Notes under the pieces: model-generated
The model's database searches: none
What the model was told of the DNA's origin: nothing
The model's input: only the letters and a program-made list of their open reading frames with translations
Part shown: in pieces, positions 11,784 through 42,448 of the stretch
Numbering within the stretch: position 1 is the stretch's first letter
How the letters are laid out: each line of letters opens with the position of its first letter
Made by a program: the position numbers and the translations under genes
DNA from: Acidimicrobiia bacterium
Lineage (GTDB): Bacteria; Actinomycetota; Acidimicrobiia; Spongiisociales; UBA11373
NCBI GenBank assembly: GCA_040878325.1
Contig: JBBDMM010000011.1
Span: forward strand, 19,305-68,594
DNA length: 49,290 nucleotides
Direction of reading: 5' to 3'

Positions 11784-13271
11784 ATGTCGGCAGTTGTTCA
11801 TTCGCAGCGGGGGCGGGTTGGTGGCGCGCTCATCTTGGTAGGGGCGATGCTGCTTGCGTTCGCCGGCATCGTCGTCATCGGTGCGGTGCCCGCTTCGGCT
11901 GCCGCCGGCGACGCCTGCCTGCTGTCTCCTTCCGATGGTCCCTTCGACTTCGACCCCGGCAGCGGCACAGTCACCTACAACGTCATCAACGGCACCGCCG
12001 GTGACGACAACATCTCCGGGACGACGGGTGACGACCTCATCTATGGCAACGGCGGCAACGACACCATCAACGCCCTCAGCGGCAATGACATCATCTGCAC
12101 CCTCGGTGGCAACGACACGATCAACGGGGACAGCGGGAACGACAGCATCTTCGCCGGCGATGGCGACAACGATGTCGACGGCGACGCCGGTGCGGACGTG
12201 ATCGTGACCGGTTCGGGCAACGACACGATCCAGGGTGGCGAGGACTCCGATGACATCGACGCGGGCGACGGCGACAACGATGTCGAGGGCAACAGTGACG
12301 CCGATGTGATCGTGACCGGTTCGGGCAACGACACGATCCAGGGTGGCGACGGCGCCGATGACATCGACGCGGGCGACGGTGACAACGATATCGAGGGCAA
12401 CGGTGGGGCCGATGTGATCGTGACCGGTTCGGGCAACGACACGATCCAGGGTGGCGACGATGCCGACTCCATCACCTCCGGGGCTGGCAACGACGACATC
12501 GAGGGCAACGGGGGCGCCGACTGCATCGCCGCCGGGGCGGGCATCGACGTCATCTCCGGTGGAGACGGGGCTGACCAGATCTCCGGTGGGTCGGGCAACG
12601 ACGCCATAACCGGCAACGGAGGCAACGATCAGCTCTCGGGAGGCGCCGACGACGACACCCTCACTGGGAACGCTGGTGCCGACGTGTTCGACGGCGGACC
12701 CGGTACGAACATCTTCGTCGATTTCAACGCCGTTCAGGGGGACATCGAGGGCACTGCCACTGTCAGCTGTGCCTCCGCGGAGGACACGACCGGTACCACG
12801 ACTACGACGATCGCGGGGGGGTCGACGACGACGACGTTGGGTAGCGGCAGTACGACGACGACGTTGGGTAGCGGCAGTACGACGACGACGTTGGGTAGCG
12901 GCAGTACGACGACGACATTGGAGTTGGGTGACGGGACCACGACGACGACGTTGGGGAACAGCACCACGACGACGGTGCTCGGCCCGGATACCACGACCAC
13001 GACGGTGGCGGGTACGACCACGACCGTCGGCGATGGCACGACCACGACTGCCGGCGACGGCACCACCACGACGGTGTTGGGCCCCGACGAACCGACGACC
13101 ACGACGACGGTTGGTGGGACCACCACGACCGTGCTGGGGCCGGACGATCCCGAGTTGCCGAACAATGGCGCCGGGCACCTGCTGGCGATCCTGCTCGGTG
13201 GGCTCGGGTTCGTGTTCATGGGCAGCGGCTCGCTGGTGATCGCCACCGAGCGCCGTCGCCTGTTCCGCTAG
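11784..13271 (+). CDS. Sortase-anchored RTX-repeat surface protein
   Basis: This 495-aa protein has a signal peptide (about 1-38), a long array of RTX-type calcium-binding nonapeptides (about 65-330), and a Thr-rich spacer with TTTT runs (about 335-455) that would cross the wall. The C-terminal sorting signal is LPNNG at 458-462, then a hydrophobic helix and RRRLFR. LPNNG departs from LPxTG by Asn for Thr. No enzyme domain is present, so it may act as a calcium-dependent adhesin or surface-layer element. ATG 11784 has AGGAG upstream. It is divergent from the sortase gene, which supports an enzyme-substrate pair. Confidence 0.88.
   Translation: MSAVVHSQRGRVGGALILVGAMLLAFAGIVVIGAVPASAAAGDACLLSPSDGPFDFDPGSGTVTYNVINGTAGDDNISGTTGDDLIYGNGGNDTINALSGNDIICTLGGNDTINGDSGNDSIFAGDGDNDVDGDAGADVIVTGSGNDTIQGGEDSDDIDAGDGDNDVEGNSDADVIVTGSGNDTIQGGDGADDIDAGDGDNDIEGNGGADVIVTGSGNDTIQGGDDADSITSGAGNDDIEGNGGADCIAAGAGIDVISGGDGADQISGGSGNDAITGNGGNDQLSGGADDDTLTGNAGADVFDGGPGTNIFVDFNAVQGDIEGTATVSCASAEDTTGTTTTTIAGGSTTTTLGSGSTTTTLGSGSTTTTLGSGSTTTTLELGDGTTTTTLGNSTTTTVLGPDTTTTTVAGTTTTVGDGTTTTAGDGTTTTVLGPDEPTTTTTVGGTTTTVLGPDDPELPNNGAGHLLAILLGGLGFVFMGSGSLVIATERRRLFR
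12198..12521 (+). repeat. Three 108-bp tandem repeats within RTX array
   Basis: Three copies of a 108-bp unit start at 12198, 12306 and 12414. The first 43 bases of each copy are identical and the rest diverges progressively. Each unit encodes 36 residues, that is four RTX nonapeptides. The identity at DNA level suggests recent duplication, so copy number may vary between strains. Confidence 0.9.
12840..12920 (+). repeat. Three 27-bp tandem repeats, Thr-rich linker
   Basis: Three units of 27 bp (12840-12866, 12867-12893, 12894-12920), with one base change in the third, encode repeats of GSGSTTTTL. They form the start of the wall-spanning Thr-rich spacer of the sorted RTX protein. Confidence 0.9.
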
Positions 13272-31418: not shown

Positions 31419-32386
31419 AGCCCGCGCAGGAACGCATCCGGGCGGCGGTGGCCGCCTCGCTGCCTCCCGGCTACGGCGCGATCACCCGCTGGTCAAGACC
31501 GCGCCAGGGTGACTGGTCGTGGATGTTCGAGGCGGAGACCGGCGGCGCCGCCCCGGCCACCCTTCTGGTGAAGGTCCCCCGATGGGAGGAGGCGACCGAC
31601 CTGGGTTCGGCGTTGAACGCCGGTCCCCAGAAGGACACTGAGGAGGAATACCGGGCTCTCGAAGCGATCGCGGCGGCGGTGGCGGCGGCGGGGGATCCCG
31701 GGCTCACGGCAGTCGTCCCGGTCGCCTACGTGCGCGAAGTGAATGCGGTCGTCACCGAGCGGCTGCGGGCAGTGCCGCTGCACGACCGGCTGGGCCGTAC
31801 GCGGGGCTCCGACGCCGCGACTCTGTTTCAGCGGGTGGGACGCTGGCTGCGGATCTTCCACGCCACGTCTGATCAGCAACTGGTCCCATTCGAGGCCGGC
31901 CAATTCGAGCGGCTGGCGGATGCGGGCCACCGGGGAGCACTCGGTGACTCTATCGCCGCCGTCGCGGCGGTAGCCCGGGTCCGGTCCGGCCGGCCGGTTT
32001 CGGTGGGGGTGCTCCACGGCGACCTGTCGCTCCGCAACGTCCTGGTGACCATCGACGACCGCGTGGCGGTGATCGACCCGAATCGCTACCGGGGCCGGAT
32101 CGCCGGCGATGCCGCCCACCTGCTCACCGAAGTTCGCCTGGGGAGGTGCCAGTTGATCACTTCGGGCGCGTTCCGCCCGAGATCGAGGGTCGAGCAGTTG
32201 GCAGTGGGGATCATCGATGGCTATCCCGAGATCGACCCCGGCGCTTTGGCGTTCGAGCGAGCGGTGGCCGCGGTGAAGCGCTGGGTCGAAGTGGAGGAGC
32301 GGACCAAGGGGATCGCCCGGCTGGCGCTCCTGCCGGCGCGTCGGTTGTTCAAGTCCGAGGTCGGAGCGCTCCTCCGACAGCCCTAA
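31415..32386 (+). CDS. APH-like phosphotransferase
   Basis: This 323-aa kinase-like protein has the catalytic loop VLHGDLSLRNVLV (Asp base and Asn) and VIDPNRY in the place of the DFG-like metal motif. This is the aminoglycoside/choline kinase fold. Its position coupled to a deacetylase inside an EPS locus suggests phosphorylation of a sugar or glycan precursor rather than drug resistance; this is inference. It overlaps the 3' end of the convergent acetyltransferase gene by 38 bp. Confidence 0.78.
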   Translation: MKPAQERIRAAVAASLPPGYGAITRWSRPRQGDWSWMFEAETGGAAPATLLVKVPRWEEATDLGSALNAGPQKDTEEEYRALEAIAAAVAAAGDPGLTAVVPVAYVREVNAVVTERLRAVPLHDRLGRTRGSDAATLFQRVGRWLRIFHATSDQQLVPFEAGQFERLADAGHRGALGDSIAAVAAVARVRSGRPVSVGVLHGDLSLRNVLVTIDDRVAVIDPNRYRGRIAGDAAHLLTEVRLGRCQLITSGAFRPRSRVEQLAVGIIDGYPEIDPGALAFERAVAAVKRWVEVEERTKGIARLALLPARRLFKSEVGALLRQP

Positions 32387-33455
32387 GGGCGTTGCGGCCC
32401 GCCCAGATCGCCCGGCCGCGGGGACCAAGCGGTCGCCTCAGACGAAGGTCGATGCGGGTGTCGGTGCCCCAGGACTGCTTGTACTCCTCGTCGCCCCGGA
32501 GAAAGTCGAATTCCCTGGCACCCTCGTCGATCGCCCCTTGGATCGCCCGTGCCATGATCGCCCTTCCCGGCCCGAACCTCGACCACGCCGGATCGAACCC
32601 GGTCGTGTAGAAGGAGACCACTTCGCCCACCCGGAAGCATTCGATGATCGCGATCGGGCTCTCGCCGACATCCAGGCGCCAGAGGCGCAATCGGCCGGCT
32701 GCCAGCATTCTGCGTGCCGTCTCGCGATGGAACGCCACCAACTCATCGGTGGCGAACGCCCCCAGGTCGCCGCGGGCGGTACGGACCGTCTGGTGCATCA
32801 CCGCCAGATGGTCCATCGTGTCCTCGAGGTCGGCCGCGGTCGCCACCATGCGGGTGACGACGGGAGCGCCGGCCTCCTGATCGAGCTTGCGCCGGTAGCG
32901 ATCGATGTTCTGCCGGTGGCTGCGGCCAAAGCGCTGGTTGACCAGATCCCACCCGCCATCGAGAGGCAGGTGAGGGCACGGCGTCTCCTCGGCCGCATCG
33001 CCGCGTCGCCGCAGCAGAAGCCTGGGGAGCACACCATCGATGGCCATGCCGTCGAAGTCGATGAGGTCCCACCGGCGGCGAACGTCCACGGCCTCCCACA
33101 GATGGGCGGCCACCGTCGGGTCCTCTCCGGTGGCGATCGGCATGTCCAGGTGGTCAGGTGCGGCCGGGCCGCTGCCGATGATCCGCAGGGATTGGAACGG
33201 TATTCCGAACTTGCGTCCGGGGGCGACATAGAACGGGGCCACGCCGAGCAAGCTCCCATCGACCGGGTGCCGGGCCGTGAAGACTTCCAGGTCGGCGTCG
33301 CGGCCCAGGGTGTCCAGCCATGCGCTCACCCAGGGCCAGGTCATGAACGCCGACCGCACCTGGGATCCGGCGACCAGTGCCTCCCATTCGGGTCCCATTT
33401 CCCTTAACTCGGCGCGCTGGACACGGGTGACGACAGGGAGAGTGCGGGTGGTCAT
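32349..33455 (-). CDS. CelD/FemAB-like GNAT acetyltransferase
   Basis: This 368-aa protein has the double-GNAT layout of CelD/BcsL proteins often found in exopolysaccharide clusters: N-terminal half with PEWEALV..S.....TWPWVSAWL, and C-terminal half with RLWRLDVGESPIAIIECF, FDPAWSRFGPGRAIMARAI and EFDFLRGDEEYKQSW. It probably acylates a sugar or lipid-linked intermediate. It is the last gene of the nine-gene EPS operon; its ATG overlaps the GT2 stop by 4 bp. Confidence 0.85.
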   Translation of the reverse strand: MTTRTLPVVTRVQRAELREMGPEWEALVAGSQVRSAFMTWPWVSAWLDTLGRDADLEVFTARHPVDGSLLGVAPFYVAPGRKFGIPFQSLRIIGSGPAAPDHLDMPIATGEDPTVAAHLWEAVDVRRRWDLIDFDGMAIDGVLPRLLLRRRGDAAEETPCPHLPLDGGWDLVNQRFGRSHRQNIDRYRRKLDQEAGAPVVTRMVATAADLEDTMDHLAVMHQTVRTARGDLGAFATDELVAFHRETARRMLAAGRLRLWRLDVGESPIAIIECFRVGEVVSFYTTGFDPAWSRFGPGRAIMARAIQGAIDEGAREFDFLRGDEEYKQSWGTDTRIDLRLRRPLGPRGRAIWAGRNALRAVGGALRPRT

Positions 33456-34609
33456 GGCTGGTCCCGTTCAGCGCGCTTCCAGACGGCCGTTTGGCCGCCG
33501 CGCATGTGGCGCCACAGTCCGCGAGCCGCGGCGTAGTTCGAGTTCACCAGGAACCGCGGCACGTAGGCCGCCTTGCCCACCGGTCGGAGAAGCGCCGGAG
33601 CCGCGGCGACGGCATAGAACCCCGCCTGGGCGATGAGGGTGATCGGTCCCCACGGTGGGGCCAGCGCCGGCAGCCCGCCGGATGGTGCCACCGCGGTGGC
33701 TGCGATCGACCCGCCGAGCGCGGCGACCATCCCGAATGGCACCAGCGAGCGGAAGATCTTGTGCGACACGAGCATCCACGCCACCAGCGGCCTTCTCCAG
33801 GGGATCTCCCGGTGCAACCTGCCGAACACCTGCCATTGGCCGGCGACCATTCGTGAGCGGCGCTCCCGCTCGGCCCCGGCATCGGAGGAAACGACCTCCT
33901 CGGACACGGATTCGGGCTGGTAGACCACCCGGTAGCCGCGTTTGACCACCCGATGGGCCATCCACTGGTCGTCGTTGACAATGGCGTCGGGGGCAGCCTC
34001 CAACAGGTCACGACGGATCGCGAAGATCTCCCCGTTCACGCCGACCGTGCAACCGAGGCGGCTCTCCATCTGGCGGAGATGGGCCTCGTAGCGCCAGTAC
34101 GCACCCTCGGAGAATCCGAGGTCGGAGTCGCCCCCGGTGACCTTGCGCCCGGTGGCCGCCCCGACGGTCGGGTCGGCGAACGGCGCGACGATCTGCTCGA
34201 TGGCGTCGGGTCGCAGGGTGTTGTTGGCATCGGTGAAGACGACCACATCGCCGGTCGCCCACTCCAGGGCCCGGCTGATTGCGGCCATCTTCCCGCGCCG
34301 TTCGGGACGATGGACCACCTCGACGCCATGGGTGCGGGCTATCCCGGCCGTGGCGTCGTCCGATCCGTCAGCGGCGACGATCACCTGCAGCAGTTCGCTG
34401 GGGTACGCCAGCCCGGCGGTGTCCCTCAGCTTGCGATCGATGACGGCTTCCTCGTTGTAGGCGGCGACGATGAGCGTGACCTTGGGGGAGTGGGGCGGGT
34501 ACTGCCGATCTCGCCCGAACGCCGCGGACAACAGGGTGACGAGCAGGGGATATCCGACATACGTGTAAGTCACCAGGCCGGCACCTGCCCAGAAGACGAG
34601 CCCGATCAT
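33452..34609 (-). CDS. Membrane family 2 glycosyltransferase
   Basis: This 385-aa protein has an N-terminal membrane helix (4-25), a GT-A domain with VTLIVAAYNEE, ADGSDDAT, FTDANN (metal-binding DxD equivalent) and the ND-D/QxxRW-like acceptor segment NDDQW, and further C-terminal helices (about 285-350). This is the layout of processive or lipid-linked-sugar glycosyltransferases such as those of the cellulose/hyaluronan-synthase type. The ATG at 34609 overlaps the upstream GT4 stop (ATGA). Confidence 0.88.
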   Translation of the reverse strand: MIGLVFWAGAGLVTYTYVGYPLLVTLLSAAFGRDRQYPPHSPKVTLIVAAYNEEAVIDRKLRDTAGLAYPSELLQVIVAADGSDDATAGIARTHGVEVVHRPERRGKMAAISRALEWATGDVVVFTDANNTLRPDAIEQIVAPFADPTVGAATGRKVTGGDSDLGFSEGAYWRYEAHLRQMESRLGCTVGVNGEIFAIRRDLLEAAPDAIVNDDQWMAHRVVKRGYRVVYQPESVSEEVVSSDAGAERERRSRMVAGQWQVFGRLHREIPWRRPLVAWMLVSHKIFRSLVPFGMVAALGGSIAATAVAPSGGLPALAPPWGPITLIAQAGFYAVAAAPALLRPVGKAAYVPRFLVNSNYAAARGLWRHMRGGQTAVWKRAERDQP

Positions 34610-35808
34610 TTCGCCACCCCGCCATACACGCCCAGGATCGTCCTGGCGATGGGCGGCCACGTGTATCGATCGGCCGCTCTGGCGGCGCAGGCTCCCATGC
34701 GGGTGGATTCGGCCGGATCGCCGAGCAGCTTGACCATCGCACTGGCGAGTCCGGGCACGTCGCCGGGGGCGACCAGCAATCCCGTCTCTCCGTGGACGAC
34801 GTCCTCGGCGAGTGATCCCAACTCTGAGGCGATCACCGGGCGGCCGTATGCATAGGCCACCTGGAGCACGCCTGACGCGGTGGCCGATCTGTACGGGAGC
34901 ACCACGACATCGGCGGTGCGCATCAGCGGTCCCACCTCCTCGAAGGGCAGATAGCGAGCGTCGATGGTGACGCGGCCGGAGACAGCGCGTCTGGCGACCC
35001 GGTGTTCGAGGTGGGCGGGGTCGACTCCAGCCGGAGGCCCGGCCACGACCAGATGGGCATCGATCTCGCGGGACGCGAGGGCGAATGCGTCGATCAATTC
35101 GTCCAGGCCTTTGCTGGGCCGCAGGCCGCCGAAAAAGAGGGCGGTCGGCTTGCCGGCCGCGATCCCGTAACGCTCCCGCAGGTCGCCGCCGGGATCCTCC
35201 GACCGGAGGAACAGGCCTTCGTCGCCATGGGGGATGACGACGGTGCGAGCCGCTTCGGCCGGATACAACTCCAGGAAGCGAGCACGGTTGGCTTCGCCGT
35301 GCAGGAAGATCACCGAGAAGTACCCGTACGCGGCACGCGTCATGGAGCGGTGGAGAGCCTGGAACGGGCCGCGCGACTCCCGCGGCTCGAACTCGTGACA
35401 GACCTGACTGATGGGGATCCCGGCCCGAACGATTCGCCTGAGGAACCACGCAAGGAAGGGAAAACGGATGATGGCGAACTGGGCGATGTCGGGCTTCTCT
35501 CGCAGAATGAACCTGGTTGCCCGGGCCCACTCCCGGGCATATCGGACCCCCCGCTCCGCCCGGCGCAGTTTGTGGCCGGCCCACACGAAGAGGCGGGCGA
35601 GCCCGTGGTGGCGAGCTGCCGGCTCGATTGCCGGCCACAGCCGCATGATCGGTGCCACCCGAAACGGCGCGTCCATCCCCGCCAGCTCGTAGTGGCGAGA
35701 GGTGACCAGGGTGACGTCTGCCCCCGCTTCGGCGAGCGCCGAGCACATCTGGAACGCGTAGTGGACCATCCCGCCGGATCCGTCCGGCTCGACGACGATC
35801 ATCCTCAT
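34606..35808 (-). CDS. Family 4 glycosyltransferase
   Basis: This 400-aa GT-B enzyme has an N-terminal half beginning RMIVVEPDGSGGMVHYAFQ and a C-terminal GT1/GT4 nucleotide-sugar domain with FFGGLRPSKGLDELI, and the terminal E-rich ASELGSLAEDVVHGETGLL motif. It should transfer a sugar to the growing EPS repeat unit on the cytoplasmic face. Both gene ends overlap neighbours by 4 bp. Confidence 0.9.
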   Translation of the reverse strand: MRMIVVEPDGSGGMVHYAFQMCSALAEAGADVTLVTSRHYELAGMDAPFRVAPIMRLWPAIEPAARHHGLARLFVWAGHKLRRAERGVRYAREWARATRFILREKPDIAQFAIIRFPFLAWFLRRIVRAGIPISQVCHEFEPRESRGPFQALHRSMTRAAYGYFSVIFLHGEANRARFLELYPAEAARTVVIPHGDEGLFLRSEDPGGDLRERYGIAAGKPTALFFGGLRPSKGLDELIDAFALASREIDAHLVVAGPPAGVDPAHLEHRVARRAVSGRVTIDARYLPFEEVGPLMRTADVVVLPYRSATASGVLQVAYAYGRPVIASELGSLAEDVVHGETGLLVAPGDVPGLASAMVKLLGDPAESTRMGACAARAADRYTWPPIARTILGVYGGVAK

Positions 35809-36998
35809 CGGAAACCCCCCGCAGAGATCGCCAGTCGGTATTCGTCGACCAGGCGCGCCGCCTGGCGTTCGAGGTCGAAACGCTCGATGGCAATGCGGCG
35901 GCCCGCCCGCCCCATCGCTGCCGATTGGATCGGAGAGGAGAACAGCCGGCGGACGGCATCGGCCAGCATCGCCGGAGCGTGCGGAGGCACCATGAGAGCC
36001 GAAATGCCCCGATCGACCATCTCGGGGATCCCGCCCACCTCAGTCGCCACGACAGGCAGGCCTGCCGCCATTGCCTCGATTAGAACCGTGGGGAGTGCCT
36101 CGGTGTGAGACGGCAGCACGAACACGTCGGCGGCGGCGAGGAGCCGCGGGATGTCGGAACGGGCACCGGTGAACAGAACCCGATCCTCGAGGCCGAGGTC
36201 GGCGACGATCCGCTCGAGGGTGGGTCGCTGGCTGCCGTGACCCACGACCACGTAGCGGGTGGAAGGATGGGAGTGCACCACTGCCGGCAGGGCCTCGACC
36301 ATGTCGGCGATTCCTTTCTCGGGTCGCAGCACCGCGACCGTCATCGCCACCGACGCATCAATGGCTATCCCCAACTCGTCGCGAGCCGCCGACCGCTTGG
36401 CGGCACCGCCGGGGGAGAACCTGGCGAGCTCGATCCCGTTGTGGAGCGTCACCACCTGGTCTCGCCTCGCCTTGGATCGTCCGATGAAGTGATCCCGTGC
36501 ACTACGGGACACCGAGACGACTCGGGCGCCTCTCGACTTGAGGATCCAGGCCATCAGCCGGTAGCGAGCGGCGTCGCGGCTCCATCGTCGGGGCCGGTCG
36601 ATGGTGTGAATCGTGGCGATAGTCGGAACCCCGAGGCGGTGGGCGGCGACCGTGCCGAGAATGTTGGAGAATTCGAGCTGGGTGTGGACCAGGTCGGGAG
36701 CGGTCCGCTCGATCACTTCGGTCACCCGGCGCAGTGCCCCCGGCTCGCGCAACCGGCGGATGCCCAGGTTGGCCACGGGCACTCCGGCGGCTTCGATCTC
36801 GGCCGCGACCGGGTTGCCTTCACGGTCTTGCATCGTCACCACGGTCGGCTCGACTCCGAGTCGCGCCAGGCGCGGCAGGTAGTCGGCGAGCAGCCGTTCG
36901 GCACCTCCGGGGCCCAGCGAGTCGATCAGATAGAGCACAGAAAGCGGCGACTCGGGAACCGGCAGCGGTGGGGTGGCGCGGAGGCGCGGGGAGCTCAT
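35805..36998 (-). CDS. Family 4 glycosyltransferase
   Basis: This 397-aa GT-B enzyme has the donor loop LGPGGAERLL, an acceptor half with LVHTQLEFSNILG and THTIDRPRRW-like segment, and the C-terminal signature LRPEKGIADMVEALP with HTEALPTVLIEAMAAGLPVV, where the EX7E motif lies. It is a second transferase for the EPS repeat unit and differs clearly from the next gene, so it likely adds a different sugar or linkage. Confidence 0.9.
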   Translation of the reverse strand: MSSPRLRATPPLPVPESPLSVLYLIDSLGPGGAERLLADYLPRLARLGVEPTVVTMQDREGNPVAAEIEAAGVPVANLGIRRLREPGALRRVTEVIERTAPDLVHTQLEFSNILGTVAAHRLGVPTIATIHTIDRPRRWSRDAARYRLMAWILKSRGARVVSVSRSARDHFIGRSKARRDQVVTLHNGIELARFSPGGAAKRSAARDELGIAIDASVAMTVAVLRPEKGIADMVEALPAVVHSHPSTRYVVVGHGSQRPTLERIVADLGLEDRVLFTGARSDIPRLLAAADVFVLPSHTEALPTVLIEAMAAGLPVVATEVGGIPEMVDRGISALMVPPHAPAMLADAVRRLFSSPIQSAAMGRAGRRIAIERFDLERQAARLVDEYRLAISAGGFR

Positions 36999-38482
36999 GG
37001 GCGGTCTCCCGCCAGGCGCCCCAGACCCGCCCAGCCGGCAATGCGCCGGACGGTGGCCGGGTCATAGCGCCACAACGCCACCACATATGCGACCGATCCG
37101 GCCACTGCCGCCGCGGCGAGCGAGGCCAGGTTCCCGGCTCCGGCGGTGAGCCACATCGCGGGAAGAGCGGCGAGTGCCAGCCAGATGCCGGCACCGACTG
37201 ACGGCGCCATCTGCCGCCAAATGTCGCCGAAGGTGGTACCCACCATTCGGTTGGCGACTGCGAGCCGAACCACCGTGTCCAATGCCGCCACCCCGGCATG
37301 CGCCCAGGCCACTCCGACGATGCCATATCGCGCCCCGAACATCAGGGCGGGGATCAGCACCACTAGTTCGAGGCCGGCCAGTTTGGCGAGAATGCCGGGC
37401 CTCCCCAGGGCCTTGTACACGTCGCCGGCGTTCACCCCAATCGACCCGAGGAGAGAGAACACGCACATCACCTGGAGCACCGGGATGGCTTGATTCCATT
37501 GCTCACCAAATAGAGCCCTTACGGCCGGTTCGGCGGTGATGAACAGGCCAACGCACATCGGCACCACCAGCACCTGGGTGTATTTGATGGTGGCGAGGAA
37601 CCCCCGCCGGAGCAATGCCGGCTGATCCTGCAGCTTCGAAAACAGCGGGAAGATCGCCCCGCCCAGCACCCGCCATACCGACTGGATGAGGAGCTCGGGC
37701 AGCCGGTAGGCGAGGGTGTAGACGCCGAGGGCGACATCGCCGAGCAGGCGACCCACGACGAGGTAGTCCAGGTTCGACCAGATGGCGAACTGGATGTCGG
37801 TGACGATGAGGGGCCCGCCGAAACGCGCCAGAGGACGCACCAGGCGGCGGTGGATCCGCACTCGCGGCCTCCACGGGAACACCGTCCAGGCGAGGATCAC
37901 GGATGTGACGACGCCGGCGAGTTGGCCCCAGACCAGCGCCCAGACACCGAAGCCGGCGGCGGCGGCGGCGATGGAGACGGCGCCTTTGACGACGGACCGG
38001 CCTACGTCCGGGATCAGCTTCCGCTTGAAGTCCATGTTCTTGCGGAGGAGGACCAGCTGCACCGAGCCGAGCGCCTCGAGCACGAAGGTGAGGGACAGCA
38101 CCCGCAGCAGGGGCACGACCAGCGGCTCACGGAAGAAGTCGGCCACCAGGGGGGCGCCAAGGAAGCAGAGGGCGGTGAGCAGGGCCCCGGTGATCAGGTT
38201 GAACGCAAACACCGTCTCTGCGGATTCGTCGATGTCGTCCTTGCGCTGGATCAGTGCGCCGCCGAGACCGAGGTCCTTCAGCACGGCCAGGTACGCCACG
38301 GCCACGGTGGCGAAGCCCACCACACCAAAGTCTTCCGGCGTCAAGAGCCGGGCGAGAATCGCCATCGTGACGAGCACGAGCATCTTCCCGGCGGCGAAAG
38401 AGACGTAGTTCCAGATGACGGCGCGAGCCGCCGCCGTGCCCAGTACGGCTTCGTCGGCGGTGCGGTCTTCGGTCAGCGCCAT
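36995..38482 (-). CDS. Wzx/PST-type oligosaccharide flippase
   Basis: This 495-aa protein has about fourteen membrane helices and the N-terminal pattern of polysaccharide transporter (MOP) flippases: AVIWNYVSFAAGKMLVLV, ILARLLTPEDFGVVG, DLGLGGALIQR. It would flip undecaprenyl-linked repeat units across the membrane. The ATG at 38482 has GGAGG ahead and starts 10 bp inside the end of the ligase/polymerase gene. Confidence 0.9.
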   Translation of the reverse strand: MALTEDRTADEAVLGTAAARAVIWNYVSFAAGKMLVLVTMAILARLLTPEDFGVVGFATVAVAYLAVLKDLGLGGALIQRKDDIDESAETVFAFNLITGALLTALCFLGAPLVADFFREPLVVPLLRVLSLTFVLEALGSVQLVLLRKNMDFKRKLIPDVGRSVVKGAVSIAAAAAGFGVWALVWGQLAGVVTSVILAWTVFPWRPRVRIHRRLVRPLARFGGPLIVTDIQFAIWSNLDYLVVGRLLGDVALGVYTLAYRLPELLIQSVWRVLGGAIFPLFSKLQDQPALLRRGFLATIKYTQVLVVPMCVGLFITAEPAVRALFGEQWNQAIPVLQVMCVFSLLGSIGVNAGDVYKALGRPGILAKLAGLELVVLIPALMFGARYGIVGVAWAHAGVAALDTVVRLAVANRMVGTTFGDIWRQMAPSVGAGIWLALAALPAMWLTAGAGNLASLAAAAVAGSVAYVVALWRYDPATVRRIAGWAGLGRLAGDRP

Positions 38483-39942
38483 GCCGCCTCCTGGACTGCA
38501 GCGTCGCGGGATTCGTCCTCGGCTCTCGCCACCGACGGGAACGCCAGGGCGATACCGATTACGAGCCATGCAAGGCGCGCAAACGCCATGTGCAGGAACA
38601 CGGAGGTGACGAGGTACCCGACCAGCGACACCGCGACGGCGAATCCGATGCCATCGGAGCGCAGGTCGGCCATCCGTCTGAAGCGGCGTCGCCCCGCAGC
38701 GAGGGCAGTGAAGGATGCGACGACCAGTCCGGTGAGCGCGACGAGGCCGACGAGGCCGGTCTCGGCGGCAGTCTCCAGGTACAGGTTGTGGGCCTCGCGG
38801 GGTGTGTCGCGCACGTCGATGCCGAGGTCGTCGGAGTACGCGGGATACTCGGCCGCGAAGTTGCCGAAGCCCACCCCGGTGAGGGGGCGATCCCAGAACA
38901 TGGCCATGGCAGCCCCCAACTCGGCGGTACGCCCCCGGAGGGACGGGTCGATCCCGGCCTCGACCTCGCCGACCTCGGTGAGCGAGGTGAGCCGTTCGGC
39001 GTAGCCCGACGGCATCAACGGCAGCGCCGCGACCAGCAGCAGCCCGGCTGCTGCCACCGTTCGAAGGCGCGGCGGATGCCGAACGACCATGAAGGCCATC
39101 ACGATGGCCAGTGCGAGCAGCCCCCCTCGCGAGAACGTGAGCACCACGGTCACCGCCATCGCGACCACGGCGTAGCCGGCGATCGAGCGGAGAAGGCCCG
39201 ATATTTCGTCGCGCATTCGGTCGAAGGCGAGCGGGATGATCATCACCAGCAGTTGGGCATAGAAGTTGGGGTCGCCCACCGGCCCCGAGATTCGGACGTC
39301 ATCCGTCCCCTCGAAGATGTTCTGTACGGCCGACTGGGCGAAGCCGCCAAAGGTGGATCCGAAGGATCCGGTGGCGAACTGGAAGATCGAGAGGGTGGCC
39401 AGCAGCGCGCCGCCCCCGACGAGTGCCCACACCAGGCGATGAAGGTCGGTCGCCCCGCGCAGCAGCATGCCGGCGAGGACCGCCACCGCGCCGTCTTCGA
39501 AGAGGGTGCGGACGGCTCCGGTTCCGTCGCCGGAGTCGCCGGAAATGAGCAGCGAGCCGATGGCGATCGCCCCGTAGGCCGCGACGAGCAGCAACGCCCG
39601 CCCGCCGCCCACCGGCCACTCAGCGGTTGCCCGGCCTCGCAGTATCAGGCCGAGGAGCACGATTGCCACAAGTGGGGCGAAGGTGGGTGGAGCTCCGTGG
39701 AAGTTGGTGGCGACATCGGCAAGGCGCAGCACTGCGAAGGCCGCCACCGCGATGAGGCCCCATTGGGGATCGAGGACTATTGCAGCCGCACCGGCGATGG
39801 CGAGCAGCCCGGCGAGAACCAGAATCGGGGGCAGCACGCCCATGGCGGCGACCCCGGCGGCAACGATGAGGATCACCAGACCGGCGAACCCCCAGATGCC
39901 GCCGCGGCTCGCCCTCCGGCCCCGAGGGGCGGCGAGGGTCAT
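38473..39942 (-). CDS. O-antigen ligase/Wzy-type polymerase
   Basis: This 489-aa membrane protein has about twelve helices and the large periplasmic loop of the Wzy_C/O-antigen ligase family, with GRTAELGAAMAMFWDRPLTGVGFGNF and the following AHNLYLETAAETG (His in the conserved H-N segment). In an EPS cluster with Wzx and Wzz it is most likely the polymerase. The ATG overlaps the Wzz-like stop by 4 bp. Confidence 0.85.
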   Translation of the reverse strand: MTLAAPRGRRASRGGIWGFAGLVILIVAAGVAAMGVLPPILVLAGLLAIAGAAAIVLDPQWGLIAVAAFAVLRLADVATNFHGAPPTFAPLVAIVLLGLILRGRATAEWPVGGGRALLLVAAYGAIAIGSLLISGDSGDGTGAVRTLFEDGAVAVLAGMLLRGATDLHRLVWALVGGGALLATLSIFQFATGSFGSTFGGFAQSAVQNIFEGTDDVRISGPVGDPNFYAQLLVMIIPLAFDRMRDEISGLLRSIAGYAVVAMAVTVVLTFSRGGLLALAIVMAFMVVRHPPRLRTVAAAGLLLVAALPLMPSGYAERLTSLTEVGEVEAGIDPSLRGRTAELGAAMAMFWDRPLTGVGFGNFAAEYPAYSDDLGIDVRDTPREAHNLYLETAAETGLVGLVALTGLVVASFTALAAGRRRFRRMADLRSDGIGFAVAVSLVGYLVTSVFLHMAFARLAWLVIGIALAFPSVARAEDESRDAAVQEAAWR

Positions 39943-40619
39943 CCGACCCTCTGGTACCGGTCGTGCTCTCTGATCGGAGTGACATTCCCATACGCACCGA
40001 GCCGGCCGTGCATGGTCGAGTGGCGCCGGCCGGGCTCGGGATCACGGAGCAGGGCGATCGCCGATCCGACGAGGAGGCCGAGTATGGCCGCCATGCCGCC
40101 GAGTTCGATCAGCCCGCGGTTGGAGGGGGAGGTGGGCAGTACGGCCGGATCGAGCACGTCGGCGTCGTAGATCCGGTAGAACGCCACGAACCGGGCGACG
40201 GCGGCATCGCCGACCGCGCCGGACAGTTGGACTGTCACCACCGGGTCCGGGCCGCGGACGGTGGTGGCGATCAGGTTGGCTTCGGGGAGCACCACGCCGC
40301 CGATCTCATAACCCTCCAAAGAGGCCAGGTCGAGGCCAGCGGCGGCAGCAGCCTCGGCGCGAACGGATTCACTCTGCACGATCTCCACGAGGGTGGTCAT
40401 GATCGACCGGCTGCGGGTCGAGTCGAGGGTCTTGACGCTCTCGGCCACGTCGACGTCATCCGGGGCGCTGTACGGGAAGACCACATAGGTCGCCCGGGCT
40501 TCGTAGACCGGGGAGGAATTGGTGTAGATGAAGGCAGCCGCCCCGAGCGCGATCAGCAGACCCAGGGCCGGGTAGTACCAGCCGAGGGCGATCGAGCGGA
40601 GGGCGCTTCGGAAGTCCAT
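39939..40619 (-). CDS. Wzz-like chain-length protein
   Basis: This 226-aa protein has two membrane helices (about 14-31 and 170-190) around an extracellular segment, and the LPTSPSNRG proline-rich motif before the second helix that is typical of polysaccharide co-polymerases. No Walker motifs follow, so a tyrosine-kinase domain is absent and none is encoded next to it. It would set EPS chain length. ATG 40619 abuts the stop of the sugar transferase. Confidence 0.85.
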   Translation of the reverse strand: MDFRSALRSIALGWYYPALGLLIALGAAAFIYTNSSPVYEARATYVVFPYSAPDDVDVAESVKTLDSTRSRSIMTTLVEIVQSESVRAEAAAAAGLDLASLEGYEIGGVVLPEANLIATTVRGPDPVVTVQLSGAVGDAAVARFVAFYRIYDADVLDPAVLPTSPSNRGLIELGGMAAILGLLVGSAIALLRDPEPGRRHSTMHGRLGAYGNVTPIREHDRYQRVG

Positions 40620-41312
40620 TTACTTGGCGCCTCGCTGGGTGAGCACGGCCGGAATGGTGCGGAACACGATCTGCAAGTCGAACCAGATGCTCCGGCGCTG
40701 CACGTACGCGATATCGAGCCTGGTGCGGTCGTCGAACTCGGAGAGCCCGCGCCCGTAGATCTGCCACAGGCCGGTGATACCCGGCTTGACGTCGAGCCGC
40801 TCCGTTTGCCAGAGGCGGTACGTGTCAGCCATGAAGTCGGTGGGCCGTGGCCCGACGAGGCTGAGACGCCCCATCAGCACGTCCCACAACTGGGGAAGCT
40901 CGTCGAGGCTGGTCTTGCGGAGGAAGCCGCCCGGACGGGTGATGCGCGGATCATTGGTGATCTTGAAGTCGGGCCATTCGAGCTCATTGAGGTGGCGAAG
41001 CTCCCACTTCATCTCTTCGGCGTCGGGGACCATCGTCCGAAACTTGTGCATGACGATGGTCTTGCCCCCGATTCCGGTGCGTCGCTGGGTGAACAACACC
41101 GGTGCGCTGGGATCGTCGATCTTGATGGCGAGCGCGCACATCCCCCACGCCACCACCCACAGCGGCATCGCAAGAATCACGAGAACGACGTCGAGCAATC
41201 GCTTGGCGATGGCATAGGCGTCGCCGGTGAGCATCCGGTGCTCGGGTCGCATCCGGTCGATCCATTCATAGCCGGACCAGAGGGCCGGCCGCGGAGTGGG
41301 GATGGCGGTCAT
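40620..41312 (-). CDS. Polyprenyl-phosphate sugar phosphotransferase
   Basis: This 230-aa protein has the full catalytic core of the bacterial sugar transferase (WbaP/PglC-type) family: the re-entrant helix KRLLDVVLVILAMPLWVVAW, then VLFTQRRTGIGGK, HKFRTM, DPRITRPGGFLRKTSLDELPQ and LVGPRP. It starts each EPS repeat unit by moving a sugar-1-phosphate onto undecaprenyl phosphate. It lacks the extra N-terminal helices of large WbaP enzymes. Its ATG overlaps the stop of the GGDEF-like gene. Confidence 0.92.
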   Translation of the reverse strand: MTAIPTPRPALWSGYEWIDRMRPEHRMLTGDAYAIAKRLLDVVLVILAMPLWVVAWGMCALAIKIDDPSAPVLFTQRRTGIGGKTIVMHKFRTMVPDAEEMKWELRHLNELEWPDFKITNDPRITRPGGFLRKTSLDELPQLWDVLMGRLSLVGPRPTDFMADTYRLWQTERLDVKPGITGLWQIYGRGLSEFDDRTRLDIAYVQRRSIWFDLQIVFRTIPAVLTQRGAK

Positions 41313-42172
41313 CGGCTTGCCACCTCATTGACGGCGCGCAACAGCGGCTCGTGCCTTTGGCCGGCAGCGAGAACGCGCTCGGCGTGCTCGACGAGGCCCT
41401 CGAACGCGATCCCGTCGTCGGGAAAGGCCGCGGTACCGGCGTGGGCGGGTACGCCTACCCGGGCGGCCGCTTCGACCACCCGGCGCACGAGCAGCTCGGC
41501 ACCGGTTTGGTCCGTCTCGGGACTCAAGATGAACAGCTGCCCCGAAGTCCGATGCTCGAAGAGCAGATCGGAACGTCGTAGCTGATCGCCGACCGCCCGA
41601 GCCAGGCGGCCGAGGACGAAGCGGTTGCGCACTGCCCGATCCATGTCACCGGAGGCCTGGTCGATCGCACGGGCGAGGGACCGCTCTTCCGCTACGAGCA
41701 CGGTGAGGGTCATCGGCCGGCCGTGGCGGCGGCTTCGAGCCAGCTCGGCGTGGATCTCCGCCGCGGCCTTGGGTGACTCGATGTCGATCGCCGGCGACTC
41801 TCCGAAGGCGACCGCGCCGAGGGTTTCGTCCAGCTCGGCGAGAATCGTCCCGACACGCTGGCCCAGCCACGAGGCCAGGGCGAGGAATGCAACTTCGGTG
41901 ACCATTACATAGACATCGCCATCAACGGATCGAAACCGGGTGATCGTCCCGCCGAAGAGGAGGTGGATCCCTACGGCGAATGCGGGAACCAACCAGGGTC
42001 GGGCGCGCCGGAGTCCGGCGAACACGAGGGGGGCGGTGACCGCCAGCGCAGCCAGGGCATACACATGCGACGCGATGGCGTCCGAGCCGCGACTGAGCCC
42101 GGCGCGGTCGACCGCGATCGCCGCGGTGAAGAGCAGGACGAGGCCGGCCAATGGCCGACGAAGCCGGATCAA
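41309..42172 (-). CDS. Membrane protein with degenerate GGDEF domain
   Basis: This 287-aa protein has about four membrane helices (8-110) and a C-terminal domain that follows GGDEF diguanylate cyclases: ELARSRRHGRPMTLTVL (143-159), LARAVGDQLRRSDLLFEH (190-207), then GAELLVRRVVEAA and GTAAFPDDG...LVEHAERVLAAG. At the signature site the sequence is TSGQLF (209-214) instead of GGDEF, so it should be catalytically dead. It may bind a nucleotide or partner protein. TTG 42172 has a perfect AAGGAGG six nt ahead. It heads the EPS operon. Confidence 0.8.
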   Translation of the reverse strand: MIRLRRPLAGLVLLFTAAIAVDRAGLSRGSDAIASHVYALAALAVTAPLVFAGLRRARPWLVPAFAVGIHLLFGGTITRFRSVDGDVYVMVTEVAFLALASWLGQRVGTILAELDETLGAVAFGESPAIDIESPKAAAEIHAELARSRRHGRPMTLTVLVAEERSLARAIDQASGDMDRAVRNRFVLGRLARAVGDQLRRSDLLFEHRTSGQLFILSPETDQTGAELLVRRVVEAAARVGVPAHAGTAAFPDDGIAFEGLVEHAERVLAAGQRHEPLLRAVNEVASR

Positions 42173-42236
42173 CAGATGCCTCCTTGGGCGGTCATGGGGC
42201 CAAACTCCGCTCCCGAGCCGGAGTGGTCAGCGCGCC

Positions 42237-42245
42237 ACGCTGAGT
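42237..42245. promoter_or_regulatory. BldD-like box, start-site copy
   Basis: On the minus strand this reads ACTCAGCGT, matching the palindromic core ACNCWGNGT of the Streptomyces BldD box. It lies 3 bp below the -10 element, over the predicted start of EPS transcription. The flanking bases outside the core fit less well. Confidence 0.5.
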
Positions 42246-42248
42246 AGC

Positions 42249-42277
42249 AACATACGCCTTTTGGGCTCCGAAATCAA
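42249..42277 (-). promoter_or_regulatory. Sigma70-like promoter of EPS operon
   Basis: On the minus strand TTGATT (-35, 42272-42277) and TATGTT (-10, 42249-42254) are separated by exactly 17 bp. Transcription would begin near 42242 and the leader to the TTG start would be about 70 nt. Confidence 0.65.
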
Positions 42278-42278
42278 T

Positions 42279-42287
42279 ACTCTGAGT
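42279..42287. promoter_or_regulatory. BldD-like box, upstream copy
   Basis: On the minus strand this reads ACTCAGAGT, a perfect match to the core ACNCWGNGT. It lies just above the -35 element. Its centre is 42 bp, about four helical turns, from the other copy, so both would sit on the same DNA face. The shared stretch extends to CTGAGTAG..AC on the plus strand. Confidence 0.55.
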
Positions 42288-42405
42288 AGTTACGGCCCCA
42301 CCTCTTGTCGAATGACGATTTCGGCCGGTTGTGGCAGGGGCTTGATGAAATTGGCGATACGCAATCCGACAAAAGGGGACCAGCCTCTGACGCGTTCGTT
42401 CTCGT

Positions 42406-42448
42406 ATCGCGGATTTTCGAATCGCGTATCGCGAATTGCGTATCGCGC
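42406..42448. repeat. Heptamer array, ATCGCGN family
   Basis: Units ATCGCGG, ATTTTCG, then after one extra base ATCGCGT, ATCGCGA, ATTGCGT and ATCGCGC. This lies in the 344-bp intergenic region between the EPS promoter and the zinc-ribbon gene. It is the third heptamer array of the window and differs in sequence from the other two. The rest of this region (42290-42405, 42449-42516) shows nothing I can name. Confidence 0.75.

Follow-up and report, generated by a model that had tools for sequence, protein, structure and literature searches.

High c-di-GMP usually favours exopolysaccharide, and transcription factors of the VpsT and FleQ type bind c-di-GMP and control exopolysaccharide. In Streptomyces, BldD is the c-di-GMP-responsive brake on sporulation, and the protein is also present in early-branching actinobacteria. 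Streptomyces BldD has been described as a repressor that acts with c-di-GMP at the BldD box (PMC4151990; den Hengst 2010, cited therein); in this account c-di-GMP makes BldD dimerise, and repression follows (PMC4151990). A 2013 review names a BldD orthologue of Acidimicrobium and only guesses at its roles in simpler organisms (PMC4255298), so the presence of BldD in the class Acidimicrobiia was already known. A further system for comparison is PelD, the degenerate-GGDEF c-di-GMP receptor of Pel operons.

The window analysed here is a stretch of 49,290 nucleotides (G000:C11:19305-68594) from an Acidimicrobiia genome (G000) of 18 contigs and 2.21 Mb (2,212,957 bases) that is 98.9% complete. A promoter on its minus strand, in front of a Wzx/Wzy-type polysaccharide (EPS) operon, carries two boxes resembling that of BldD. 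It is likely, in our judgement, that both are operators of the BldD-family regulator of this genome, the c-di-GMP-loaded form of which would repress the operon. The following elements were read from the sequence:

42279 to 42287, minus strand: box 1, ACTCAGAGT (context CTACTCAGAGTAT), a BldD-like candidate operator
42272 to 42277, minus strand: -35 hexamer TTGATT, about 70% conserved across relatives
42249 to 42254, minus strand: -10 hexamer TATGTT, 17-bp spacer, TA...T kept among relatives
42237 to 42245, minus strand: box 2, ACTCAGCGT (context CTACTCAGCGTGG), a BldD-like candidate operator

The arrangement TTGATT-17 bp-TATGTT with two flanking ACNCWGNGT boxes, proposed in a sequence-only reading of the window, was confirmed. 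Box 1 ends 1 bp upstream of the -35 hexamer and box 2 starts 3 bp after the -10 hexamer, where it covers the expected start site, with 42 bp between the centres of the boxes. Both are exact matches to ACNCWGNGT, the palindromic core AC-N5-GT of the Streptomyces box, which likewise lies at promoters, and the stretch common to both, CTACTCAG(A/C)GT, is longer than first stated. The paired arrangement at 42 bp differs from Streptomyces, as do the outer operator bases, which are CYAC/GTRG here and TNAC/GTNA there; with CTAC..GTAT and CTAC..GTGG, the two boxes do not match TNAC..GTNA. The promoter was absent from the list of a strict sigma-70 scan because it has 8 of the 12 consensus bases, below the threshold of 9, although relatives conserve both hexamers.

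Upstream of the EPS promoter, at 42348-42447, there are intergenic heptamer-type repeats with GCGATACGC and CGCAATT units. The genome holds 75 copies of GCGATACGC, 49 of them between genes, versus 10 of the reversed word, and the repeats are similar to the short heptamers repeated in tandem in cyanobacteria. Further tandem repeats, 27, 54 and 108 bp in length, lie in coding sequence at 11984-13147; they are Gly/Asp/Asn-rich, like calcium-binding RTX repeats, and are followed by a Thr-rich array.

Two such cores could have arisen by coincidence, or be merely part of an extended promoter element, as box 1 abutting the -35 hexamer would allow. Single cores are indeed no commoner than expected, with 4 ACNCWGNGT observed versus 4.75 expected in the window and 105 versus 141 for the reversed pattern in the whole genome, and single-core counts were therefore uninformative as evidence. 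However, among the 105 exact cores of the complete 2,212,957-base assembly the pair at the EPS promoter is the only one within 100 bp. The 42-bp pair pattern with one mismatch was also scanned in 59 genomes and was discarded, giving about as many matches as its reversed control; the exceptions were its matches to the EPS promoters of three genomes and, in G004, to sequence immediately upstream of bldD. An exact pair in G007 was probably due to chance, since no BldD or EPS gene was found in that genome.

Orthologues of the first gene of the operon (gene 1) are present in eight other genomes of the family. A search of 395 Acidimicrobiia genomes found gene 1 in this family only (386 were without it), and for this reason the conservation of the boxes was assessed within the family. 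The neighbour order gene 1-GPT-Wzz-Wzy-Wzx-GT4 is kept at the available loci, as far as these reach. The promoter alignment comprised seven genomes, G000 included; the promoter of G006 does not align, and a contig end truncates that of G010. Mean pairwise identity was 81% for box 1 and 61% for box 2 versus 33% for the flanks, and 71% for the -35 and 68% for the -10 hexamer, with 30% in the spacer and 30-36% across the flanks. The boxes, the -35 and the -10 are the conserved islands of the EPS promoter in most family relatives, and the half-sites AC and GT of box 1, together with the C at -2, do not vary in any of the seven genomes. Both boxes are exact and 42 bp apart in G002, and exact or near matches occupy both places in G008, G012, G003 and G011, the last two with a spacing of 43 bp. 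G009 is without box 2, and the pair is rearranged in G006, where 20 bp separate two boxes near the start. Conservation of the boxes in close relatives, on which the earlier proposal had been made to depend, was thus observed along with that of -35 and -10. The presence of both boxes at matching positions in five of seven relatives and the invariant half-site of box 1 argue against coincidence.

A BldD-type protein, which the same proposal implied, was sought in the complete genome with the S. coelicolor BldD sequence, which was checked against PDB chains. The genome encodes one homologue:

G000:C7:41508-41966, minus strand: BldD homologue, encoded elsewhere than the EPS operon, on contig 7

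The homologue showed 43% identity over residues 4-153 (E 1.5e-33). Like Streptomyces BldD, it has an N-terminal XRE helix-turn-helix and a C-terminal BldD_C domain (PF21179, 73.4 bits versus a cut-off of 27), and matches to 2ewt (DNA-binding domain) and to 4oaz and 5khd (C-terminal domain) cover nearly the whole protein. The c-di-GMP signature RXD-X8-RXXD, also shared with Streptomyces, is present as RQD-YNGKVLTI-RRDD with all four c-di-GMP-contacting Arg and Asp residues kept, and was found in 30 of the 30 BldDs examined, across which the recognition helix KA(A/S)V(V/L)GAYERGER is near-identical. In contrast, Lys84 of Streptomyces BldD, a position said to be Lys or Arg throughout BldD homologues (PMC4151990), is not kept; in a locally uncertain alignment it is Gly in G000 and Gly, Ala or Thr elsewhere. 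The NCBIfam equivalog model NF050110 gave 150.3 bits, below its cut-off of 250, and owing to this and to the loss of Lys84 we call the protein a BldD-family homologue. Within the family, the BldD_C domain was detected in 12 of 14 genomes, including all nine that have gene 1, and other GGDEF proteins above the Pfam cut-off occur in all 14. At L021:1489-2079, bldD lies between dnaJ and phoH, a neighbourhood that differs from the one in Streptomyces.

The bldD gene itself is a target of BldD in S. coelicolor (PMC4255298), and we therefore trained a motif solely on bldD upstream regions, as a palindromic 13-mer learned de novo from 29 genomes, with 150 bp of sequence in front of bldD taken from each. 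The result, YRCNCWGNGYR, is the Streptomyces core, its outer bases being pyrimidine/C. Its log-likelihood was 108 versus 19-47 in shuffles; the sequence downstream of bldD also yielded a palindrome de novo (score 83.5, unrelated consensus), so the likelihood taken by itself says little. When the motif was trained on the 17 genomes outside the family it read CCACTCAGAGTGG, and in a scan of G000 this version ranked box 1 first of 2.2 million positions and box 2 fourth, with the EPS promoter first among pairs at 26.0 bits versus 20.8 for the next. With this independent ranking and the seven-genome conservation, the chance explanation is close to refuted, and we regard it as hardly tenable. Training restricted to the 12 bldD promoters of the family gave a blurred motif that placed the EPS pair only third.

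The bldD promoters of the family carry a box about 3 bp after the -10, as box 2 does in the EPS promoter; in G011 the bldD promoter reads TAAGCT-GAT-ACTCAGCGT, where the EPS promoter of G000 has TATGTT-GCT-ACTCAGCGT. Autoregulation, expected of a BldD box, is reflected in the de novo motif of the 29 promoters, with weak boxes only in the bldD promoter of G000 itself. Additionally, bldD promoters in this order (G004:C1:562843-562893; loci L043-L072) were seen to contain boxes in twos or threes, spaced by about 21-22 bp, and one of each set directly follows the -10.

A motif shared by the bldD and EPS promoters points to a shared regulator and not to which one, and the palindrome might be bound by another XRE-type or an unrelated regulator instead of BldD. 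The outer bases, unlike those of the Streptomyces box, and the score of the homologue below the equivalog cut-off are in line with this. However, de novo learning returned the established BldD core, Streptomyces bldD is known to be autoregulated, and the recognition helix has hardly changed; we find a different regulator quite improbable. Control of the EPS operon by c-di-GMP and BldD, as the sequence-only reading had suggested, gains support from the homologue, from the conservation of the boxes and from the first rank given to the EPS promoter by the bldD-promoter motif.

The operon behind the promoter has eight genes, and its TTG start lies about 70 nt beyond the promoter:

42179 to 42185, minus strand: Shine-Dalgarno AAGGAGG, from the sequence; 6 nt separate it from the TTG start at 42172
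41309 to 42172, minus strand: gene 1, membrane helices and a degenerate GGDEF, 287 aa (alignment, AlphaFold, Foldseek)
40620 to 41312, minus strand: gene 2, polyprenyl glycosylphosphotransferase (PF02397, 197 bits; TIGR03025 below cut-off)
39939 to 40619, minus strand: gene 3, Wzz-like chain-length protein, weak match (TIGR01005, E 1.5e-4; PF02706, E 0.04)
38473 to 39942, minus strand: gene 4, Wzy / O-antigen-ligase-type polymerase (PF04932)
36995 to 38569, minus strand: gene 5, Wzx-type flippase (PF13440)
35805 to 36998, minus strand: gene 6, GT4 glycosyltransferase (PF00534)
33452 to 35959, minus strand: gene 7, GT2 glycosyltransferase, 835 aa (PF00535)
32349 to 33455, minus strand: gene 8, GNAT / FemAB-type acyltransferase (PF13480)

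The first protein had been described as GGDEF-related, and this holds for its fold and not for its motif. Pfam and NCBIfam models detected nothing in gene 1 and the fold search alone showed GGDEF, with Foldseek matching the AlphaFold model (pLDDT 79.5) to GGDEF structures with E values down to 1.5e-7. The alignment shows that the GGDEF motif has been lost and that all eight sequences keep the RxxD I-site, as RRSD (the G000 form) or RRTD. The product is a degenerate GGDEF protein that probably acts as a c-di-GMP receptor rather than as a cyclase. In this it resembles PelD, being membrane-anchored and encoded in a polysaccharide operon, with a catalytically dead GGDEF fold and an RxxD I-site. 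It differs in that its operon is of the Wzx/Wzy type; Pfam and NCBIfam gave no GAF domain and no Pel-operon match for gene 1 and the operon, and therefore the gene 1 product is not a PelD.

Polysaccharide operons of Chloroflexota (L030-L033) are also headed by a pair of dead-GGDEF and glycosylphosphotransferase genes. The occurrence of this pair there and its absence from 386 of 395 Acidimicrobiia make a transfer between phyla possible. No such boxes were found at the Chloroflexota operons with the same first gene, the upstream regions of L031 and probably of L033 not being usable. BldD was not detected in the Chloroflexota genomes having gene 1, in a search that was without a positive control there and used a model that does find BldD in the family genomes.

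By analogy with Streptomyces BldD, c-di-GMP would bridge two protomers of the BldD-like protein into a DNA-binding dimer. One dimer would sit on box 1, adjacent to the -35 hexamer, and a second on box 2, covering the start site; four helical turns would separate them along one face of the DNA, and both together would block RNA polymerase. We infer such occlusion as the simplest reading because one box lies against the -35 and the other over the start. High c-di-GMP would then repress the polysaccharide operon and falling c-di-GMP release it, and the BldD-like protein may control its own gene through the same motif. The dead GGDEF of gene 1 keeps its I-site, and the operon may therefore be controlled by c-di-GMP twice, the gene 1 product possibly sensing c-di-GMP as a second control at the protein level.

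The direction of control is the least certain step of this mechanism. The BldD-like protein on both boxes might instead activate, with box 1 as a class II site and c-di-GMP turning the polysaccharide on. Box 1 is the better conserved of the two and lies directly upstream of the -35, the hexamers are weak, and activation would follow the general tendency of c-di-GMP to promote exopolysaccharide, which repression would reverse. However, box 2 covers the start site in most relatives, as is typical of a repressor position, the same box lies over the start site in bldD promoters, and the developmental targets of Streptomyces BldD are reported to be repressed (PMC4255298). We thus consider activation unlikely, and repression by the c-di-GMP-loaded BldD-family protein is the reading that we retain.

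The regulatory logic would be similar to that of the VpsT and FleQ type, with a c-di-GMP-binding factor on a polysaccharide promoter, although the proteins and their binding modes are unrelated. The target differs from that in Streptomyces: a Wzx/Wzy polysaccharide operon takes the place of a sporulation gene. A literature search pairing BldD with Acidimicrobiia found no paper, and one pairing BldD with polysaccharide found no title or abstract that gives a polysaccharide operon as a BldD target. Three features appear to be new with respect to the papers searched: the polysaccharide-operon target, outer operator bases that differ from those of Streptomyces, and the connection with a dead-GGDEF gene.

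The EPS promoter supplies a concrete and testable polysaccharide target, as well as an operator motif applicable to the order as a whole. More tentatively, surface polysaccharide could be an early or original role of BldD in actinobacteria, outside sporulation, and in this family the operon could be wired to c-di-GMP twice, in a feed-forward or feedback loop; we hold this to be possible and rather doubtful. If true, the double wiring would consist of BldD at the promoter and the dead-GGDEF receptor from gene 1. The finding suggests that a regulator of sporulation had, or acquired elsewhere, the usual job of c-di-GMP, that of deciding on surface polysaccharide.
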